Below are positions 1 through 48,322 of a stretch of 64,000 nucleotides of DNA, piece after piece. How positions within the stretch are numbered: the first letter of the stretch is position 1; each line of letters begins with the position of its first letter. The notes under the pieces were generated by a model, which had not been told where the DNA came from, did not search any database, and saw only the letters and a program-made list of their open reading frames with translations. The stretch lies in the NCBI GenBank assembly GCA_963422465.1, contig OY730175.1:1116001-1180000 (forward strand), in the 5' to 3' direction. The position numbers and the translations under genes are program-made. Source of the stretch: Lichina pygmaea (Eukaryota > Ascomycota > Lichinomycetes > Lichinales > Lichinaceae).

Positions 1-374
1 ACCTAAGCCTAAGTACTTTTCAAAGTTGACCAGGACAGATGTGTCATAAATCTTGGGGGTATCACACAGCACACATTTCTCAGTCGCATTTTTTTTTTGT
101 CGCATCCAGTGCCTAGCTCTACTTTACTTCAGTCAGACCTTGATTTTGATGTCATTCATGGCATTTGTGGGGGTATGGAGACTCCATCAGCTGTGTGGAG
201 TTTGGCAGTCGGGGCATGGAAGGCTGACTTGTCAATAGTTCTGGAGTACTTATGCTCCCTAGGGATCTTCGCTAATTTTGAGGTACCCCGGTACGTACCC
301 TTAGCTGAGGGGGGCATTGAAGTAAGAAGGGGGGTGGGGTAAGTGAAAAGTTGCATAGAGGGGGGCATCGCATT
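1..374. other. Left-edge stretch without a gene
   Basis: I see no gene here. The stretch has a 10-base T run near 90 and several G-rich strings between 305 and 365, with AGGGGGGCAT occurring twice. It borders the first foldback element and may be older transposon debris, but I could not match it to anything else in the window. Confidence 0.4.
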
Positions 375-375
375 A

Positions 376-1190
376 ATTGTCCGCCAACATAATGACCACC
401 CCAACGTACTGTAACATGGTCGCTTTCACCTAATCCACACTTCTATAACTCCACAACGCAACAACTAAATTGAAAAGTCATGTGCTCATTAGATTTCTCT
501 ACTTCCCTACTATAATCCATGAGGCTGTAGACTTCTCCTAATTTTTGCGGCATTGCTGAGAAGCTGCCATAGCTACACCACGAAAAGTAGCTCTTTGATA
601 GAACCAATCTCAAACACCTGTAACTCCACAGCACAACAATAAAATAGTAAATATTATGCGCCCATCTGATTCCTCTACAACTGTACTATCATCCCTGAGC
701 TTGTAGACTTCTGTTGACTTCTGTGGTGTTGTTGAGAAGCTGTGGTAATTGCTATACCTGCCTTAGCTACCACGAGAAGTGAAGCATGCAGCCAAGACGG
801 CAGCAGCAAAGACAAAGGGCACAGTAACTTCTACAGCTTCTCAACAACACCACAAAAATCTTGAAGAGTTGACAGAGTCAGTGATGATAGTACAGATATA
901 GGAGAATCAGATGGACACATCATATCTCCTATTCTTTCTATCAAGGATCTGCTTTTTTGTTCGGTTGCTATAGTGGTATCTTAACAACACCACAAGAACA
1001 GGAGAACCCTGAAACTTCACAGATTATAGTAGAGAGGTACGTATGTAGATGAATCTAATAAGCACATCAGATTCTATTTTAGTTGTTGTGGTGTGGAGTT
1101 ATAGAACTGCAGACTTGGTGAGAGTGACCATGTTACCTTTGTACGTTGGGGTGGCGTGGGTGGTCATTATGTTGGCCTGGTGGACACCCT
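376..1190. mobile_element. Foldback/MITE-like DNA element A, about 815 bp
   Basis: The two ends form a long inverted repeat: the left arm from about 384 (CCAACATAATGACCACCC) reappears reverse-complemented up to about 1176, followed on both sides by related strings down to ACTCCACA. TA dinucleotides at 374-375 and 1191-1192 would fit a TA target duplication, as expected for Tc1/mariner/pogo elements, but the outermost bases align less well. Inside are two degenerate copies of a module (roughly 450-560 and 600-755) containing TGTGGTGTTGTTGAGAAG, and inverted copies between 830 and 1120. The same module occurs in elements B and C below although the terminal repeats differ. There is no transposase frame, so it is non-autonomous. 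Confidence 0.65.
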
Positions 1191-2378: not shown

Positions 2379-3986
2379 ATGGAAGCCGCCGGATTCGCGA
2401 TCGGCGTCGTGGGCGCTGTAGGCGTGCTGGGTCACGTCTTTGACGGCTGCATGAAAGCCTACTCATATTTCACCGTCGCCGCGAGTTTTGGCAGGGATAG
2501 CGAACGTCTGCTTTGCAAAATCCGCATCGAGGAGATGCGACTGCTGGTGTGGGGTCGCGAGTGGGGCGTCAAGGAAGGCAAGCTCGAGGCGCATCTGGCC
2601 GCGGTGAGCGGAGAGAACGACGGCTTGAAGAAGCTTGCCGAGACGATCTTGAGCCAGCTGTTGGACACAATCGGGAACAGCAAAAAGCTCAAGGAGCGAT
2701 ATGGGGTCAGAGAAGAGGCGCCGACCGGGAAGACGCTCAATCCGAGCAGATCTCCCGACCTGGGCGCCGGGAGCGGCTGGGGTGAATTCAAGATGAAAGC
2801 CAAGTGGGTCGTCGGCGACAAGGAAAAGTTCGAGTCGCTCTTGAAAGAGCTGAGAGACTACAATGATGGGCTGGAGAGGCTGTTCCCACCGGCGCGCATT
2901 GCCACGCTGCAGCGAACATGGACCAACGAGCTGCTGCAGACGGCGAAGAGAGACGTCTGTCAGCTCAATCTCCTCGAAACGGCATCCAGCGGCGTCTACC
3001 CGCAGTTGACCGCATGCGCCAGCCTCAAGCAGCTGCGCATCAACCTCGACGAGGAGGAGTCGAAGAGATTCAAGCCGACATCGGAGCTGAAGATCCCGAA
3101 GCACTGTGTCCACATCGACGAAGACGAGGAGAAGAGAGTCACCGGGGAGCACAAAAGGAGCGCGGACGGACTTGGAGAAGCCGTCGTCGTCGAGTGGATC
3201 ACGTACGAGCCGGAGATGGATCTGGATACGCGACTCGTCATCTACCAGAGGGTCGACAGCCTGGCTCGCATGGTGCATTCCGCGTCGAATCGACATCCGG
3301 ATCTCCATACGCTCGATTGCGTCGGCTACATTGACGACTCGGAGAAATCGAGGTACGGTCTTGTGTACCGCTGCCCCGCCCGAGCGGCGCAGTCACGGCC
3401 GGTGACGCTCGCGTCCTTGATCGCCAACCCTCAACTCCGCACGCCCGACCTGAGCGACCGCTTTCGGCTGGCGCACTCGCTTGCCGTCGCGTTGTGGTCG
3501 TTTCACTCGCTCGACTGGCTGCACAAGACCTTCTATGCCGGCAACATTCTGTTCTTCCACGCCGGCCAAGATCTGGAGCAGCCGTACGTGACCGGCTTCG
3601 AGAGTTCGCGGCCGGACTACCTCAACGAGATGACGGTGGCGTCGAAGAACGACACAAAGCAGGATCTGTACCGCCACCCGGACTCGCTCGGCATCTGGCG
3701 CGAGACGTACCGAAAGGCGTTCGACGTCTACTCGCTGGGCCTCGTCCTCCTCGAGATTGGGCTGTGGAAGAGCGTCCAGGACTTCCATCGGCCCAAGTAC
3801 ACGCCCGCGCTGTTCAGGGACAAGGTCATCCTCACCGGCATCGTGCCGAAGCTGGGAGGCAAGACGGGGAGGAGATACCAGGCCGTCGTCGAACGATGTC
3901 TCCGGAGCCACTTGGCCGAAGATCGTGACGAGGTCGAGAAGTCGATGGAGTGGATCGTCTTGACGCTCGAATCGCTACGGGTGTGA
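2379..3986 (+). CDS. HeLo-domain protein with a C-terminal pseudokinase-like domain
   Basis: This is one uninterrupted frame of 535 residues. Residues 1 to about 210 resemble the fungal HeLo (prion-inhibition and propagation) domain: the start MEAAGFAIGVVGAVGVLGHV and the following SFGRDSERLLCKIRIEEMRL, then LLVWGREW, are typical. HeLo domains are membrane-active helical bundles used in fungal cell-death and incompatibility systems such as HET-S. Residues about 290-530 look like a protein-kinase fold: a hinge-like region, WLHKTFYAGNILFF where the HRD catalytic loop should be, VTGFESS where DFG should be, and FDVYSLGLVLLEIGLW as the helix-F region. The HRD and DFG aspartates are not in place, so it is probably a pseudokinase. 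I infer a signalling or cell-death role from architecture only. No partner NLR or amyloid-motif gene is seen nearby and no C-terminal prion motif is evident. Confidence 0.8.
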   Translation: MEAAGFAIGVVGAVGVLGHVFDGCMKAYSYFTVAASFGRDSERLLCKIRIEEMRLLVWGREWGVKEGKLEAHLAAVSGENDGLKKLAETILSQLLDTIGNSKKLKERYGVREEAPTGKTLNPSRSPDLGAGSGWGEFKMKAKWVVGDKEKFESLLKELRDYNDGLERLFPPARIATLQRTWTNELLQTAKRDVCQLNLLETASSGVYPQLTACASLKQLRINLDEEESKRFKPTSELKIPKHCVHIDEDEEKRVTGEHKRSADGLGEAVVVEWITYEPEMDLDTRLVIYQRVDSLARMVHSASNRHPDLHTLDCVGYIDDSEKSRYGLVYRCPARAAQSRPVTLASLIANPQLRTPDLSDRFRLAHSLAVALWSFHSLDWLHKTFYAGNILFFHAGQDLEQPYVTGFESSRPDYLNEMTVASKNDTKQDLYRHPDSLGIWRETYRKAFDVYSLGLVLLEIGLWKSVQDFHRPKYTPALFRDKVILTGIVPKLGGKTGRRYQAVVERCLRSHLAEDRDEVEKSMEWIVLTLESLRV

Positions 3987-5737: not shown

Positions 5738-7781
5738 TCAGAGCTTGACGCTCTTGACCAGTTTCGTCTTGATGCCTGTCATCTCGCCCTGGTATCCACC
5801 CCTCTGCTCGCCGCCGCCGTACACCTGCCGGACGCTGCGCAGCTTCTTTTGCTTCTCGGCGAACTTCTTGCGCTTCTTGACGCGCGGGTTGCGCACGTCC
5901 TTCCTGCGGTGCGGCGCCAGGCCCTTGTTCTTCTCGATCTGATACGTGACCGCGCGTTTGCCATCCGGGCCAACGCCTTCGTCCTGGTCGTGGTAGGACG
6001 CGGTCGGATGTGCGTTCGACGGCCCGCTGATGTCGTCTGCCTTGCCGCGACGCTTCTTCTTGCTGGCGACGATGAGGTCGTAGTATTCTTCGTCGCTGTC
6101 CTTGCGGTCTTTGTTGGCCGGCAGGAGATCTCCGCCGTCCTCGTCATCACCTTCGCCGTTGGCCCTGCCGAGATTTTCTGAAGCATCGCCTGCTCCGTTG
6201 CGCATTCCTCGTTTCTCAGCCTCAGCGTTGAGCCTCGCCTGTCGATCTTTGAGCCGCTCTCTGTAGGGAAGATCAACGTCGCCTCCAGCGTCTCTGCCGG
6301 CGTTCGACCGTTTGTTGGCCTTCTGCGCGATCTGAGACGTGTAGAAACGGAGAGTCTTCTTTTTACGCGCCTTCTCGGCCGCATCAACAGGGTTGAGGAC
6401 CGACTCTTCGCCAAAGTCAGACAATCGGCCGGCGGCAGTGAGGGACGCGTCGATATCCTGGGTCTGCTGCGCCTTGATTCGGCTGGTAATAGCGGAGAGA
6501 CCGGCGAGCTCTTCTTCAGTCTGTCTGATCTTCTCGGCCAGACGCCTTTCAGCCTCAGCATGAGCGACTTCAAGCGCGGCTTGCCTCTTCCGGGGTCGTA
6601 GCTTGTTCCGGGGCTCGGGGTTCTCTAGGTTGTCACGGCTGTTTTTCCGAGCCTCTTTGTCGTCTTCCGCGACAGGCTTCATGATCATGGCATGCTCTTT
6701 GGCTGAGGCTTCCACATCATTGGGAACTGTCAGATCCTTGACGCGCTCCCAAAGCTGGCGACATGCAAGAAGGCGCTCCATGATTGGATGGTCCTTGAGG
6801 TCTGGCGGGCCTGTGGCCGCCGCCGAGCGCACACCAGCCTCGGCCGTCGAAGTAAGAATTGCAAAATACATGCTCAGAGCGCCGAGATATGACGTGAGCG
6901 AATGGAACTTCAGCGACAGAATGCTAGGAATGGAAGGTTGATCTGAATCCTGCTCAAACGAGGCCACTTTAGCGGTGTATGTCACCTTGAGATCGGCATA
7001 CAGAGGTTGGAGCCTGATAAACTCGTGTGAGAGAGGGCCAAACTCCGGATATCGAAGGTTAAGTATGCGTAATCTTTCTTGCGTCCCCATTGAGTCTGTG
7101 ATCTCCAGTTGAGGGAGTACTTCGGTCACGGCCCGGCCATCGTCCGCCCCCTGGCCGGCCTCGGCATCGTGTGGCGCGCCGTCGTCTAGCCATGCAGAAT
7201 CATCGAATCCAAAGTCAGCTTCTGTCTTATTCTTGAGTCGCTTTTGCTGCAAGCGCCGTGCTTCGGCTTCCTCTTCTGCTGCGTCTTCTTCGTCCTCAAT
7301 CTCGTCCTGGTTGTAGTAATCCCTTTTCGATGCGCCCCAAGTCTCCAGAGCGTCTTCATCGTCGGTACCTGCGCCATCTGCACTATCATCGATTCCGAGA
7401 TCCTTGGTTGCTTTCGACGCGGTTGATGCTCGCGGTTTCTTCTCCTTTTGCGCTTCGACTTCATGGTACTGATCCTCCGCCGAGGTCGACTCATATCCTT
7501 CGAGAACCTCCTCGTCGGAGAATTCTATGTACTGATCTGTATCGTTGTTCAGTTCTGTACCAGAGTTGCTCTGCGGGCGAAATGGCACCTTGGTCACGTA
7601 AGCCCTCATCTTTGGCGGTATCTTCGAGAAGAACTTTGTCCTGGTTGAGGAAGAATTCATCTTCGGAATCTGCAACGTCTTCGTAGGTCGTCAGCCGCTT
7701 CAATTTGCCGTCGGACCCCTTCTGCTGGGTCTGCTCTGGAACTGGCGGAGGTCGATTAGAGCGCTTCCGTTTTTTGCCCAT
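5738..7781 (-). CDS. SAS10: Sas10/Utp3 small-subunit processome protein
   Basis: Two exons are inferred, 7781-7598 and 7536-5738, joined across a 61-nt intron (donor GTGACC, branch-like CTGAAC, acceptor ATACAG), giving 660 residues. The start MGKKRKRSN followed by TYEDVADSEDEF is typical of the family. The first frame without splicing runs into an unrelated sequence, so the intron is needed. An acidic N-terminal third precedes a helical Sas10/Utp3/C1D domain around residues 240-340. The basic C-terminus (NKGLAPHRRKDVRNPRVKKR and KLVKSVKL at the end) is the conserved Sas10 C-terminal domain. The family acts in the nucleolus with U3 snoRNA in 18S rRNA processing. Its start codon lies only about 140 bp from transposon B. 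Confidence 0.93.
7537..7597 (-). other. SAS10 intron
   Basis: This 61-nt intron reads GTGACC at the donor and ATACAG at the acceptor, with CTGAAC near the 3' end. Removing it moves the reading frame by one base and joins the family-typical N-terminus (DKVLLED) to the acidic block (QYIEFSDEEVL). Confidence 0.75.
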
Positions 7782-41723: not shown

Positions 41724-44700
41724 ATGCACGCAACGCAAGAAGCCAGCTCGCCGAGTTCGATGCCTCCCCGCGCCGCAGATGGTGATGCAGCAGGCTCTTC
41801 TTCGGCCGAAAGGGATCCGCGACAAGATGGCCTTGAGCCGGAGCCGGAGAGGCCGTCCGGCGCGCAGAGTTCCGAGCCTAAGGAGGCAAACAAAGGTCAC
41901 GGGCGGACCGCCTCGCTGGCAGCAAAACCCCGAGGCGATTCGAAACCCGGCGCGCAACGGAAGGTCTCGTCGGTCAGCAGTCGAAAGCGGCTGAATTGGA
42001 GGGGAAAGAACTGCGTGATCTACCCACCCTACAATGATGACCGCGGCAACGATAAGGACAAGCCGCGGCTTCTCTCGCGCAAGGAACGTTCCGAGAGACT
42101 GCAGGCGTGGGAGGATCAAGGGTACGACACTCGCGGATTCGGCTTCTGGAGGCGCCCTGATACGGGCGAGGTGCTGGTGATCGAGGGGCAAGGTCGACCA
42201 ATCTACCCTAGGGCCGAAGATATGCACAGCGAATGGCTCGAGAAGGAGTACAAGATCAGCATCCCGGACCTTGACAGTGGGTACTTTCTGGGCTCGCAAC
42301 AGTATCGTCTGTCGAGATCGTCCGGCTAACGGAACGCCTCGCAGAATGGCAGGCCTACGTGACCCAGCTCAAGGAGGAGAAGCTCCAAGCTCTGGGCGTG
42401 AGCGCCGGCAACGAGAGCAAATCGGGCCAGGCGACACCCTCGAGCGCGGCGATGAGCAGACAGCCGTCCGCGCGGAATCCGCTTCTGCAGCCGTCTCTCT
42501 CCCCACCGCCGCTCACAACCTCATCCGTGAGCAACCAGAGCGGACAGCTCTCGAATCCGTTCTCGCCCCCGCTCCTTCCTGCCGGCATGCTCGCTGCTGG
42601 TCTGCAAGGGGGTCCGTACGCTCTGGCTGGTTCCATGTCCGCCGCCGTCCCTCCCCTGCGCGTACCCGACCACGTGGACGTGCACGAGTCTCGCTCCGCA
42701 GGTGCTCTGGACGGTGGGCTCCGGTCACCGCTCGGACCTCGGGGCCTTTGGCAGAATCTGAACCCGCCAATCGTCTATCAAGCGGCCGGGGCTGGTGGGC
42801 CGGGGAACCTGCCTCCGCTGGCCCCCATCCTCCGTCGCACCTCGTCCCTCGACCAACACGTGGCGGCGCAGCTCTCTGAAGTCGTCGTGGCGGACGCGAC
42901 GAAGCAAGAGCGAGACCCCGCGGCCGGGGGCGGAACGGACGCAACGCCGCGACCGCGACCCCAGCGCGTCAACAGCGATCTGCTGTGGCATCGCAATCCT
43001 CGCCCCGGCCTTGGCGACCAGGCAGGACCTCACCGAGAGAACTCGCCGTCGCATACGGCGATGGATGTCTCAACGGGCCAGCGCAGCAGCAGCGGAGGCG
43101 CCCGTCGAGATCTACAGGGCAAATTGCACGACGCCGAGTATCACTTGGAGGCGTCCATCGAACGCCAGATGGCCGAAGGAGACGACTCGCGGATGGATGA
43201 CGCCTCGCCGTTCGATTCGGAAGACGTCATTCCGCACTTCAACGACATCGTTTCTCAGGTCGGCGAGCGCCAAACGTGCACGCGCTTTGTGCCAATGCCG
43301 TCCGCCGACCCTGGTCACGACATGCCTCTCATCTCACCCCAGCCTCGGCGCAGGCAGCATGCATTGTCCAACAGTACCACGCACGACAGGCACGCGAGCG
43401 CCGGGTCCGTGGATGCAATGAAACCCAGCGCCATCTGGCCCTCCCGCGTTGCTACCAACATCGACCAGACCGATGAAGATCAACGTCACACCAGAGCCCC
43501 ACACGTCAGGCATGCCTCCGCCACGGCCGAGGCGCAGAAGGTTCTCGGCCTCGTCGACCCTGGGACACAAAAGGGAGCCAGTCAAGCCTCCGGAGCTTCG
43601 CGCTGGAACGTCGAGGCCGAAGAATTTAAATTCGAGCCTGGGCGCGCTCTCCTGTCGAATGCGTTCGCCTTCGACCCTCGGGCTTCGAAGGCCGGCATGG
43701 CGCCAGCAAGGGCCACGGGTGGTAACGCCCAGGTCCCTCAGGCACGCCGCTCAAACGCCGGCGCTCCCATCGCTCCTGGCACGAAGCTCAATGTCCAGGC
43801 GGCAACCTTCATGCCGCGTGATCCGACCGCCATGGACGTTCCGACGGCGGATTTCAGTTTCTCCTCGATGAGACAGCCTGTGTGGCCCATCTGGCCGAGC
43901 CGGCCGTCCCTCTCAATCGACCATCGTCGGAACAACAGCGAGGCCGCGGGTCATGGCTATGCTGTTCGGCCGGATGCGTCATCGAGGATGCAGAGTAAGA
44001 TCTTTGATCTTCCGAGACGTGTCGAGGCACGCAGCCGGTCGAAAGCAGTTCCGATCCTTGCTCCGGACCACCGGATGCGGACGACGCGCCCCGATGATGG
44101 CGACGAGGAAGATGAGTCGGGCCATATCACACGAGGCCAGAGCTGGGACAAGAAACCGCGGCGAACTGGTAGGGACGTTGATGAGCGAGCCGAGCAAGCA
44201 TCTTATTCGCGTTCCAAGGCCGAGATTGTGCAACCACAAGGATGGCAGGACGATGCTTCCAGGAATTTCGATGCGGTTCCGATCACGCAGACCAGATCTC
44301 CATCGACGACAGGAGTGGCAGCCACGCCAGTGGCCGTGGGCGTAAAGGGCTTGACGTCCGACAGCGCAAATCCTCCTGAGGAGATTGGACAGGCTTTCTC
44401 GCCTCCGCAGAAAGCATCGGAATCTTCAGAGTCTTACTATACAGCGACGACCACTGGAGCCGGCCAGTACATCACCGACACGAACCGGAGGCCTCCCGAT
44501 CATGCTTGGTCGCAAACGGGCGACGCAACTCTCACGCGGCCAGTTGAAGCGACTAACGGCCAATCGGGCATAGGTAGCCGCCGAGACAGTCTAGGGTTGG
44601 GCGTCACCAGCGTCGCTGCTTCGGTCGCTGACAACGTGGAGTCTTCGACGCTGGCCACCGGGCCGGCCCAAGAGAGCAGCGGGTATGGACTCTCCGGGAT

Positions 44701-47700
44701 GAGGCCGCTTACCTTGGTGACTAGGCAAGAGCGAGAAATAGCACACCTGAGGAGTAATTCCAGGTCCAGAGCGGATCTTGCAAATAGAATGTCCTGGCCG
44801 ATGACCGGCAGTGCTGGAACTAGGCTTACCGTGTATCGAGGTACAGCTTCGGAGGGGAACAACGACAGCAAATCGCAGCTGGACAAGAGCGGATCCGATC
44901 AGGACGACAGCCGCTCACTTGGTCTCTCTCAAGCTCCTACGACGACTGGAGCCTTGACCGAAATCCCGGATCATCCAAGTCCTCTGCAAGAGAAGCGGTC
45001 CGATGGGTCCTCGTACGGCCAGGGTCCCAGCCCGAGCTCTACGTCGTCTTCTCGCGGATCTCAGACTCTCCTGAGGCGTCGAAGCAGGATCGAGCCTCCA
45101 TTCGTGCGTCGTCACACGAGTGGGACGCCAGACCTAAGCCGTCCACATTCGTTCCGGCCTCGTCATCGACCTTCAGCCTCAGAGATCGTACCCTCCTCGA
45201 CGGTCGAGCGTCCCGCCTCTCCGTCGGGCGACATGAAGTTCCAGTCCCCAAGTCAGTTCCTCGAAGGCCACTTCGATCGACTTATCCAGCGCTTGCTAGA
45301 TCATCGGCTGTCGCCTCTGGGAGAGTCCATGGCAAAGATTCAGGAGTCCATGGCCGTCGTCGCTCAGACGGCGGTCACGTCCGGGAAACAGCAGGGCGGG
45401 TCGTCGAAGCAGCCATCCAACAGCGACGCTGACGATGAAGATGATGACTCGTCCAATGCGAACGCTGCTCCACCCAAGTCTCCACGGCGTGACCCGAGGC
45501 TGGAGAAGTTCAAGGCTGCCATCGCAGAGAGCCTAGAAGCTCATACCAGCACCCTACAGGCGCTCGATTTAGCCTCCGAATTATCGGCGATCCACCAGGT
45601 GCTTCTGGAGATCAAGGCCTCGTCTGGACGTGAACCACGGCGGGACCTACCGGACGTGAGCTTGCTTCGGTCAATAATCAAGGAGACGTTCGTCAATGGC
45701 CTGGAGTCGCACCGGAAGGCTCTGGGTCAGTCTAATGTCGTTAACCTCGGAGAGTCGCAGCGGCTGGTATCGGCGCTTGAGCAGTTGATAGGCAGAGCTG
45801 AGCAGAGCTCCAAGGTTCAGATACACATGCGGGCAGCTAACGAGGAGGACGTCAACGAGCTGCAACGGCAACGCCGCCTGTCAGCGGTCGAGGCAGCTCA
45901 GCAAAGATCCCTGGCAGAGGTCAAGCAGCGACAGCTGCAGACGCAAGAGGAGACCCACCGGCAGAGCACGCTCAATCTCCGGGCTCAGCTCGACGGGGCG
46001 AGATCGGAGCTGGAACGAGTCACGACCGACCTATCGGCCGCGAATGCCTCCTTGAAGGGACAGCTGAGAGAGGCGCTCCTCGAACGGTCATGCCAACGAG
46101 AGGCTGCGGAAAGGCTGACAAGCACGCAAGCGGGCTTGAACAGCACCATCAAATCTCTGGAGGACAAATTGGAAGACGGTGCGAGGGCTCGTGCAGAACT
46201 GGAACGGAAGTGCACCAGCGCAGAGGAGGATCTAGGTCGCGCCATGGCCCGAGCCGAGTCCGGTCATACCGCCGTGCATCACAAGGACGAACAGCTGAGA
46301 GCGCTTGAGATCTCGGCTAGCGAGACACTGAGGGCAGCGGCCAGCGTCGAAGAAAGGTTGGAGAACGAAGTGAAGAGGTCCGAGAGAGAACAGCGAGAGG
46401 CCGTAAGGATGGAGATGAAGTGCGAGGAGCTACAGAGTGCTCGCGAACGGCTCGACACATTGATCGAGAAAATGCGGGTCGAGAATCTGGACCTGCAGAG
46501 GGCGAGCGCGCGCTTGCAGGGTGAGCTCGACGAGGCAAAGGCGACAGGACAAGCCGAGGTTCGACGCACGAAGATTCTTCTGGAGGCCGAAATGGACGCA
46601 ACACGCCGTCAAGCAGAACAGACACGGGCCGAGCTCGAAAGCGATCTAGCGCGGGCTCGGATGGACGTTGAGTTCCACAAGCTCGAGCACGAGAGCGCGA
46701 CGGCTCGCGGCCAGATTCAGCTCGAGGAAGCGGAGAAGGCCAAGACAGACAGCATGAAGGACGCCGCCCAGGCGCAGCAGAAGGCATGGCGGGAGCAAGA
46801 GGAGTCACACCAGCGGCAGCTGAACGACGTCTGGTCACAGCACGAGCTGGCCCTCCAGAGGGCAGACGGCGAGAAGCAGCGAAACGCGGAAAACTCGCTC
46901 GAGCGGCTGAGACTCGCCGACGATAAGACGACACAACTGCAGCAGCGGATCGAGCTTCTTGAGAGGACTGCCGCCGAGGAGAAGCAGCGGGCGGGGGAGA
47001 ATCTGCTCGAGCGCATCCAGATCTCGGAGCAGAGGAACCGGCAACTGCAGGAGCGAGCCGACTTTCTGGAAAGGTCTGCGGCCGGCGAGAAGCAACAGGC
47101 AGAGGACCGTTTGCTCCAGCGCCTCAGCATCTCCGAGGAAGGGAACACACAGCTGCGAGAGAGGATTGAGGTTCTGAAGAGCACCGCGGCTGAACAGCAG
47201 CAGCGGACCGTAGTAAGCTTCACCGAGCGTCTGCACATGTCCGAGGAGAGGAACGATCTTCAGCAGGAGAAGGTCGAGCTCTTGGAGGAGAAGCTTGAGA
47301 TTGCTCGGTCGGCAGCCAGTGCGGCGGCGCAAGCAGCGCAGCAGGCCAAGACCAGCACGGCATCGGGCGGGTCACCCGGCGCCGACGGCCCCGTGAAGTT
47401 GTCCCCGCAGGCTCTGCGCGAGTCGATCCTCGTGCTGCAGGACCAGCTTCAAGAGCGCGAAGGCCGGATCGAAGCGCTCGAGCAGGACCTCTCGCAGGTG
47501 GACGGCGGCGCACCGGCCAAGATCAAGGAGCAGCAGGTCGAGATCGGGTGGCTGCGGGAGCTGCTGGATCTGCGGATCGGCGACCTCGAAGACGTCATCC
47601 AATGCCTGTCGACGCCGGACTTTGACCGCGACGCCGTACACAACGCCGTCATTCGCCTGAAGGCGAACCTCGAGATGGAGCAGCAGGAACGCGAGAGGTC

Positions 47701-48322
47701 GACGATGGGAACACGCACGCTATCCGCTTCGCTCGCCAGCGTTTCGTCGTCGCTGTCGACGCCCAAGGCGGTCTTGCCGCTCGCCGCCGCATGGGGCAGC
47801 TGGCGCAAAGCGCGCCGCGACAGTTACTCGGCGGAAAGTCGAACGCCTTCGCGACAGTCGCCGTCGCCGAGCGTCGGCTCCAGGGGGATCTTTGCCGGCC
47901 TCTTGACGCCGCCAGGCACGCAGACGCGTCCCGACAGCGGCAGGAAGGCTCCCAGCGCAGCACCGATCTCGCTCACACGACCCGCCACGGGCCACGTCCG
48001 AACGCCCAGCCAAGCCAGCGACGCAAGCGATCTTGATCGGGATCGTGCGTCTCAGAAGATGGTAGTGAGCATGGCGACGCGCGACACGCAGACCATGGAC
48101 GCACCGGGACCCAGCACACCGACCATGCCGACCATGCCGACCATGCTGCAACGCGAGGCATATGACGACGACGCGACAAGTCAGCATCTCGGCGACAACA
48201 GCAGTGGATCAGTGGATGGTGAGTCTGGGCATGAACATGGGCCTGGACATGATCTTGAGCTTGAGCATGAGCGCCGTGGTCATCATTCTTGGCATGCAGA
48301 TCTGCATGAAAGTGCAGTGTGA
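41724..48322 (+). CDS. Large conserved fungal coiled-coil protein
   Basis: Two exons, 41724-42276 and 42345-48322, encode 2,176 residues; the 68-nt intron reads GTGGGT...CTCGCAG with branch GGCTAAC. Residues 88-200 form a compact box I recognise as conserved in Pezizomycotina: LNWRGKNCVIYPPYNDDRG, then RLQAWEDQGYDTRGF, RPIYPRAEDM, KISIPDLDKW and YVTQLKEEKLQALGV. About 1,000 disordered Ser/Pro/Arg-rich residues follow. From about 1,360 to 1,850 is a long coiled coil, including four near-identical 36-residue units (46883-47314). After it come LRIGDLEDVIQCL, STPDFDRDAVHNAVIRLKAN and LAAAWGSWRK, also conserved. The function is unknown; a scaffold or cytoskeletal role is only inference. A GTGAGT at 48219 could open a further intron near the end. 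Confidence 0.82.
46883..47314 (+). repeat. Four 108-bp in-frame repeats within the coiled coil
   Basis: Units begin at 46883, 46991, 47099 and 47207, exactly 108 bp (36 residues) apart. They share the pattern xxExxLERLxxSExxxxQLQ followed by ERxExLERxAAxEKQQ. The exact phasing and the conserved residues indicate internal tandem duplication; the last unit is the most diverged. Confidence 0.85.

Follow-up and report, generated by a model that had tools for sequence, protein, structure and literature searches.

A HeLo-pseudokinase gene and its surroundings

The window, by which we mean the whole 64,000-nucleotide stretch of Lichina pygmaea DNA analysed here, carries an uninterrupted open reading frame of 535 amino acids that begins with ATG (Table 1). 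Base shuffles of the same interval (n = 200) yielded a longest stop-to-stop frame of at most 324 amino acids (mean of the longest frames, 157) and we therefore do not regard the frame as a product of chance. GC content at the three codon positions is 0.60, 0.41 and 0.81, which is how a protein-coding gene of a GC-rich fungus would be expected to look. As read from its sequence, the predicted protein consists of an N-terminal HeLo domain, of a kind known to act against membranes, followed by a C-terminal kinase-like domain lacking the catalytic residues, which is the layout of MLKL, a cell-death protein of animals.

A Sas10/Utp3 gene lies downstream on the minus strand (5741-7690), and a Pfam scan of every frame in the window with 330 amino acids or more (15 frames) gave further matches above cut-off to a class V aminotransferase, GLE1, a DIS3L2-like RNase, a ubiquitin-conjugating enzyme and a 14-3-3 protein. 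Frames resembling a sugar transporter and a phosphotransferase were noted by eye within the 10 kb upstream. The window also holds an open frame of 2,015 codons (42275-48322, plus strand), which has no Pfam match at E ≤ 0.01. Positions 1171-1261 are occupied by a repeat of ~90 bases with at least 40 other matches in the genome, several copies of which form inverted pairs 0.8-3.1 kb apart, an arrangement that would fit inverted repeats at the ends of a DNA transposon. A 79% copy of the same repeat is found upstream of the paralogue C2 on contig 2 (L043:3531-3611).

Table 1 Features of the HeLo-pseudokinase gene, with positions in the window
Feature	Window position	Amino acids	Strand	Evidence
HeLo-pseudokinase gene	2379..3986	535 aa	+	Uninterrupted open reading frame; longest frame of 200 shuffles 324 aa
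N-terminal hydrophobic segment, where HET-S has its buried membrane segment	2385..2441	3-21	+	Kyte-Doolittle mean 1.94
HeLo domain	2406..2975	10-199	+	PF14479, E 3.9e-40; HET-S/s structures, E 9.7e-10 and 1.8e-33
Kinase-like domain (N-terminal border uncertain)	3120..3986 (DUF7580, 3246-3929)	~248-535	+	DUF7580, PDB profiles, hhalign
Lysine-free beta3/alphaC region	3156..3344	260-322	+	Lysine positions
HKTFYAGN for the catalytic loop HRDxKxxN (Asp and Lys lost, Asn kept)	3522..3545	382-389	+	hhalign, paralogue alignment
GFE for DFG	3594..3602	406-408	+	hhalign
YRHPD for APE	3669..3683	431-435	+	hhalign
DVYSLG, kinase alphaF motif (DxWSxG)	3723..3740	449-454	+	hhalign

The N-terminal half is a HeLo domain with HET-S/s as nearest solved relatives

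An earlier note, made from the letters of this DNA alone, had read the N-terminus as a HeLo domain, and profile searches bear this out: Pfam HeLo (PF14479) matches at 138.3 bits against a cut-off of 23.2 and covers positions 3-205 of its 205. The nearest solved relatives in the PDB are the HeLo chains of HET-S/s, which were reached both by the single protein and, far more strongly, by a profile of the window protein and a HET-S-like HeLo gene from contig 3, the latter entered as two pieces from different frames in separate alignment rows (E values in Table 1).

HET-S is described, in the excerpts of the literature on which we draw, as having a hidden segment of ~34 residues that is exposed to membranes (PMC3531502), and the most hydrophobic 19-mer of the window protein lies in the corresponding place. 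Inactive HET-s carries a proline at position 33 (H33P; PMC10197012); counted along the alignment from the PDB search, this position falls on Ser36 of the HeLo-pseudokinase. We saw nothing in the sequence of the domain that would contradict an active HeLo. Two plain patterns, GxQxG and NxGxQxGxN, were the only amyloid-motif patterns tried, and neither occurs in the protein.

The C-terminal half is kinase-like by profile comparison

The HMM search returned HeLo above cut-off, as the earlier note had anticipated, and DUF7580 (PF24476; E 1.4e-10, 41.8 bits against a cut-off of 27, amino acids 290-517) where it had anticipated a protein kinase family. Searched singly against the PDB, the protein reaches kinases only at E ~0.9 (CDK12). 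A profile built from the window domain and three paralogues of the same genome (C1, C2 and C3, described below) matched 227 distinct PDB sequences at E ≤ 10, and the 60 listed were all protein kinases, with Pto best (E 1.3e-4). Leaving out C3, which aligns poorly in the motif columns, gave a three-member profile with 396 PDB matches; the 60 listed were again all kinases, with IRAK4 best (E 1.6e-4) and MLKL (6vc0, E 0.0069) among them.

We also compared the domain with ten canonical kinases of the same genome, picked for wide coverage and freedom from internal stops from 30 loci out of 147 genome matches. Using hhalign, the window domain with two paralogues aligned to these kinases at 98.5% probability (E 3.4e-15, score 107.9), whereas none of 60 column shuffles scored above 25.2 and the score of the reversed alignment was 15.4. 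Inclusion of C3 gave 98.0% (score 96.6), and the window domain alone 95.3% in local and 79.8% in global mode. By these comparisons and their controls, the C-terminal half is a kinase-like domain as judged from profiles. The earlier note had claimed as much and had named a C-terminal half that is not kinase-like as the outcome that would overturn it; the PDB profiles and the separation of hhalign from its shuffles contradict that outcome.

Single-sequence AlphaFold2 models were of low confidence, with a mean pLDDT of 34.7 for the full protein and 40.1 for amino acids 251-535. Foldseek with the latter model returned 302 matches at E ≤ 10, 0 of them at E ≤ 0.001, and among the 50 listed a few kinases stand beside unrelated folds. 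Strands and helices follow one another in this model much as in a kinase N-lobe, an observation that carries no evidential weight at a pLDDT of 40.1.

The PDB matches suggest one possible role, in which the kinase-like domain would serve as sensor or decoy by mimicking a kinase attacked by intruders, so that binding or damage would trigger the HeLo domain. The immune kinases Pto and IRAK4 are among the best PDB matches listed, and non-self recognition is a role of fungal HeLo proteins according to the excerpts of PMC12881547 and PMC10197012. However, the Pto and IRAK4 matches are weak (E ~1e-4), and the domains of PERK, GCN2, IRE1 and JAK score alike. We consider a decoy unlikely, and the idea overlaps with the self-restrained executioner proposed below.

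Four catalytic residues are lost together

The earlier note had also claimed that the aspartates of HRD and DFG are missing, and hhalign places the replacements as it had described, with HKT (382-384) in the position of HRD and GFE in that of DFG, while Asn389 of the catalytic loop is retained. Further along, the sequence replacing APE is shared as YRHP by three of the four family members in the genome. There are zero lysines across amino acids 260-322, and so the VAIK lysine is absent in any register. E272 was considered as the replacement of the beta3 lysine and dropped, since the register there differs between MAFFT and hhalign (V270, E272 or T275). With the beta3 Lys, the HRD Asp, the HRDxK Lys and the DFG Asp lost together, phosphotransfer is very unlikely. 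The loss of the beta3 Lys, the identity of GFE with the MLKL motif and the presence of paralogues in the same genome had all been missed by the earlier note.

Paralogues confirm the motif register and complicate the function

The paralogue C2 (contig 2, 991 kb) aligns with amino acids 47-513 of the window protein at 25% identity (E 2.1e-25). It matches DUF7580 at 31.5 bits (cut-off 27) and HeLo at 23.1 bits, just below the cut-off of 23.2 (E 7.5e-5). Its motifs read HQDVTSNN and SFDVF, and the HRD Asp is retained in the column of the window Thr. Because the HQD of C2 occupies the same column as the window HKT, the HRD register is confirmed; a misplacement of the motifs, which the earlier note had allowed for, is contradicted by this column in the sole paralogue with HQD.

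That the catalytic loop of C2 has retained HQD and the Asn is also what could be said for a kinase-like domain with an unorthodox catalytic activity, and kinases with displaced catalytic residues do exist. The window copy, however, lacks the beta3 Lys, the HRD Asp, the HRDxK Lys and the DFG Asp all at once, and we regard such an activity as extremely improbable.

No hydrophobic stretch was found in the first 90 amino acids of the C2 frame (best 19-mer, 0.54), and upstream minus-strand frames, inspected by eye, contained neither a HeLo-like exon nor a hydrophobic stretch. Not every member of the family can therefore be a membrane killer, and a protein with both domains and no membrane segment leaves room either for a family that does not kill or for C2 as a regulator. 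Along these lines, the HeLo domain might be a module for membrane binding or self-association only, with the pseudokinase as a recruiting scaffold and no killing at all. C2 retains HeLo from helix 2 together with the kinase-like domain and lacks the preceding hydrophobic segment, and the domain pair has thus been kept where pore formation looks impossible. Against a mere scaffold stands the window copy itself, in which the hydrophobic segment is still present and HeLo is matched strongly, and we rate this alternative as rather unlikely. Past the kinase-like domain, the C2 frame (contig 2, ~990-993 kb) runs on for several hundred residues that include Gln-rich and acidic stretches.

C1 (contig 1, 264 kb) was picked up through its similarity to the window protein, with which it aligns over amino acids 230-464 (E 8.4e-14). 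It carries the motifs HKNIRTNT and SWT and has a hydrophobic segment at its start (1.98), and it has no Pfam match above cut-off (DUF7580, 18.3 bits against 27). A frame resembling a reverse transcriptase was seen by eye ~2.7 kb from C1 (contig 1, L044:7946-9001). C3 (contig 3, 2984 kb) scores above the DUF7580 cut-off and higher for this family than any other locus of the genome, and it has lost the motif columns. The column of GFE reads SFD in C2 and SWT in C1, and GFE is therefore not fixed in the family even within one genome; its identity with the MLKL motif may be a matter of convergence.

Searches with the single protein returned no match from viral contigs; from prokaryote genomes they returned 10 pattern matches, none of them a relative. 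A locus on contig 2 (788 kb) holds the sole PF17111 (PigL_N) match in the genome at E ≤ 0.001, with no kinase-like frame seen by eye in the 3.4 kb inspected.

No NLR domain match lies close to the gene

Among fungal HeLo effectors, those studied best are partners of NLRs and are triggered through amyloids. A six-frame search of the genome (E ≤ 0.001, best candidates) found 25 NPHP3_N, 6 NACHT and 3 NB-ARC matches, none of which lies within ~630 kb of the HeLo-pseudokinase; the single match on contig 7 is ~630 kb away. In contrast, an NPHP3_N/NACHT frame is found on the other strand ~0.5 kb from the HET-S-like HeLo gene of contig 3. As the HeLo-pseudokinase has no nearby NLR domain match, unlike both HET-S and the contig 3 gene, a built-in receiver domain is plausible. 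The contig 3 gene (L045:1818-4508) spans two overlapping reading frames, reflecting an intron or a frameshift, and at the end of the second frame lies a hydrophobic, membrane-like stretch with no obvious amyloid motif.

A proposed executioner under a dead kinase switch

We put at about even the chance that the protein is a soluble, self-restrained HeLo executioner switched by its dead kinase domain. In such a protein, the kinase-like domain would have given up phosphotransfer and would act as the receiver. A partner, a ligand or phosphorylation would change its shape, and this change would release the HeLo domain and allow it to oligomerize, much as the MLKL pseudokinase acts. The hydrophobic N-terminal helix of HeLo would then be exposed and would permeabilize the plasma membrane, as that of HET-S does. 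The earlier note had likewise suggested a death effector released by ligand binding or phosphorylation. The two domains, their order, the residue losses, the hydrophobic segment and the want of a nearby NLR domain match are observed; that the protein kills, that it is held in check and what sets it off are inferred.

In favour of the executioner are a HeLo match far above cut-off with HET-S/s as nearest solved relatives, the segment at amino acids 3-21 and Ser36 where inactive HET-s has Pro. Also in its favour are the kinase-like domain seen by profiles with controls, the loss of the four catalytic residues while Asn389 and the alphaF motif stay, a GFE like that of MLKL and the distance from any NLR domain match. 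Against it, C2 lacks the hydrophobic segment, the MLKL bundle is out of reach of the HeLo profile, the beta3 Lys of human MLKL is absent here, and the structure models are of low confidence; C2 is the main doubt.

A bolder version of the executioner would make the protein a working fungal counterpart of MLKL, a HeLo executioner held by its own pseudokinase, perhaps nucleotide-free and dispensing with the amyloid-NLR pair. The window copy, which has the segment, or C2, which lacks it and has more of the catalytic loop, could then switch or damp the other. We offer this version tentatively and think it doubtful. A HeLo-pseudokinase with no adjoining NLR would mean that the solution of MLKL, a switch made from a dead kinase, is also found in fungi, through descent or convergence. 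It would provide a genetically simple system for the restraint of a membrane killer by a pseudokinase, and the pairing of GFE with a missing beta3 Lys would serve to test the importance of nucleotide binding for such a switch.

Comparison with MLKL and other known systems

The closest solved relatives, HET-S/HET-s of Podospora anserina, share with the window protein a HeLo domain with a hydrophobic N-terminal segment. HET-S, as described in the excerpts of PMC10197012, has a C-terminal amyloid domain and a gene adjoining that of the NLR that triggers it, NWD2. The window protein differs in having a kinase-like domain in the place of the amyloid domain and in the distance, noted above, from any NLR match.

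Animal MLKL resembles the window protein in having an N-terminal helical domain followed by a pseudokinase, in the loss of the HRD Asp and in GFE for DFG, with killing by HeLo putative in the fungus. The excerpts on MLKL report GFE for DFG and HGK in the catalytic loop of the human protein (PMC5104457), GFE as the motif of MLKL orthologues and a human beta3 Lys implicated in ATP binding (PMC6013482). MLKL keeps its VAIK Lys (K230), whereas the window protein has no beta3 Lys, and the catalytic loop reads HGK in MLKL and HKT in the window protein. Among PDB sequences, the HeLo profile matched six at E ≤ 10, none of them MLKL, and the four-helix bundle was not reached by sequence; the three-member kinase profile scored MLKL no better than other kinases (60 listed of 396).

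Descent of both proteins from one ancestral fusion of a HeLo or four-helix-bundle domain with a pseudokinase could account for the same domain order, for GFE in both and for the presence of MLKL among the 60 listed of the 396 matches. Yet IRAK4, PERK, GCN2, IRE1, RAF1 and Pto outscore MLKL in that same list, and no MLKL is found among the 60 listed of the 227 matches of the four-member profile. SFD and SWT in place of GFE in the paralogues, the failure of the HeLo profile to reach the MLKL bundle and the different status of the beta3 Lys also count against common descent, which we hold to be highly improbable.

The MLKL family of seed plants is said to resemble animal MLKL and to have a HeLo-type domain (PMC9950082, excerpts), a likeness to the window protein that comes from the description of the plant family. 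In the excerpts available, MLKL-family homologues of Glomeromycotina occur with Sel1 repeats (PMC8778642) and basidiomycete NLRs have MLKL-like N-termini (PMC9815663); these sequences are described there with Sel1 repeats or NLRs and not with a pseudokinase, unlike the window protein. DUF7580, which the C-terminal domain matches above cut-off, is a domain of unknown function, and its name was found in no paper of the mainly open-licence literature searched, exclusive of preprints. No paper listed from that literature was recognized as giving a mechanism for a fungal HeLo-pseudokinase, in line with the earlier note, which knew of no fungal HeLo-kinase fusion with a worked-out mechanism.

The layout is shared by fungal proteins mentioned in a 2025 review, where some HELL domains are found in kinase or pseudokinase proteins, like MLKL (PMC12881547, Fig. 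6 legend); the domain named in the legend is HELL rather than HeLo, and it comes with no sequence, motif or mechanism. The MLKL-like layout proposed in the earlier note stands as to the domains and their order, while as an arrangement in fungi it is already in print in general form. What the window protein adds are the motifs of its kinase-like domain and its paralogues.
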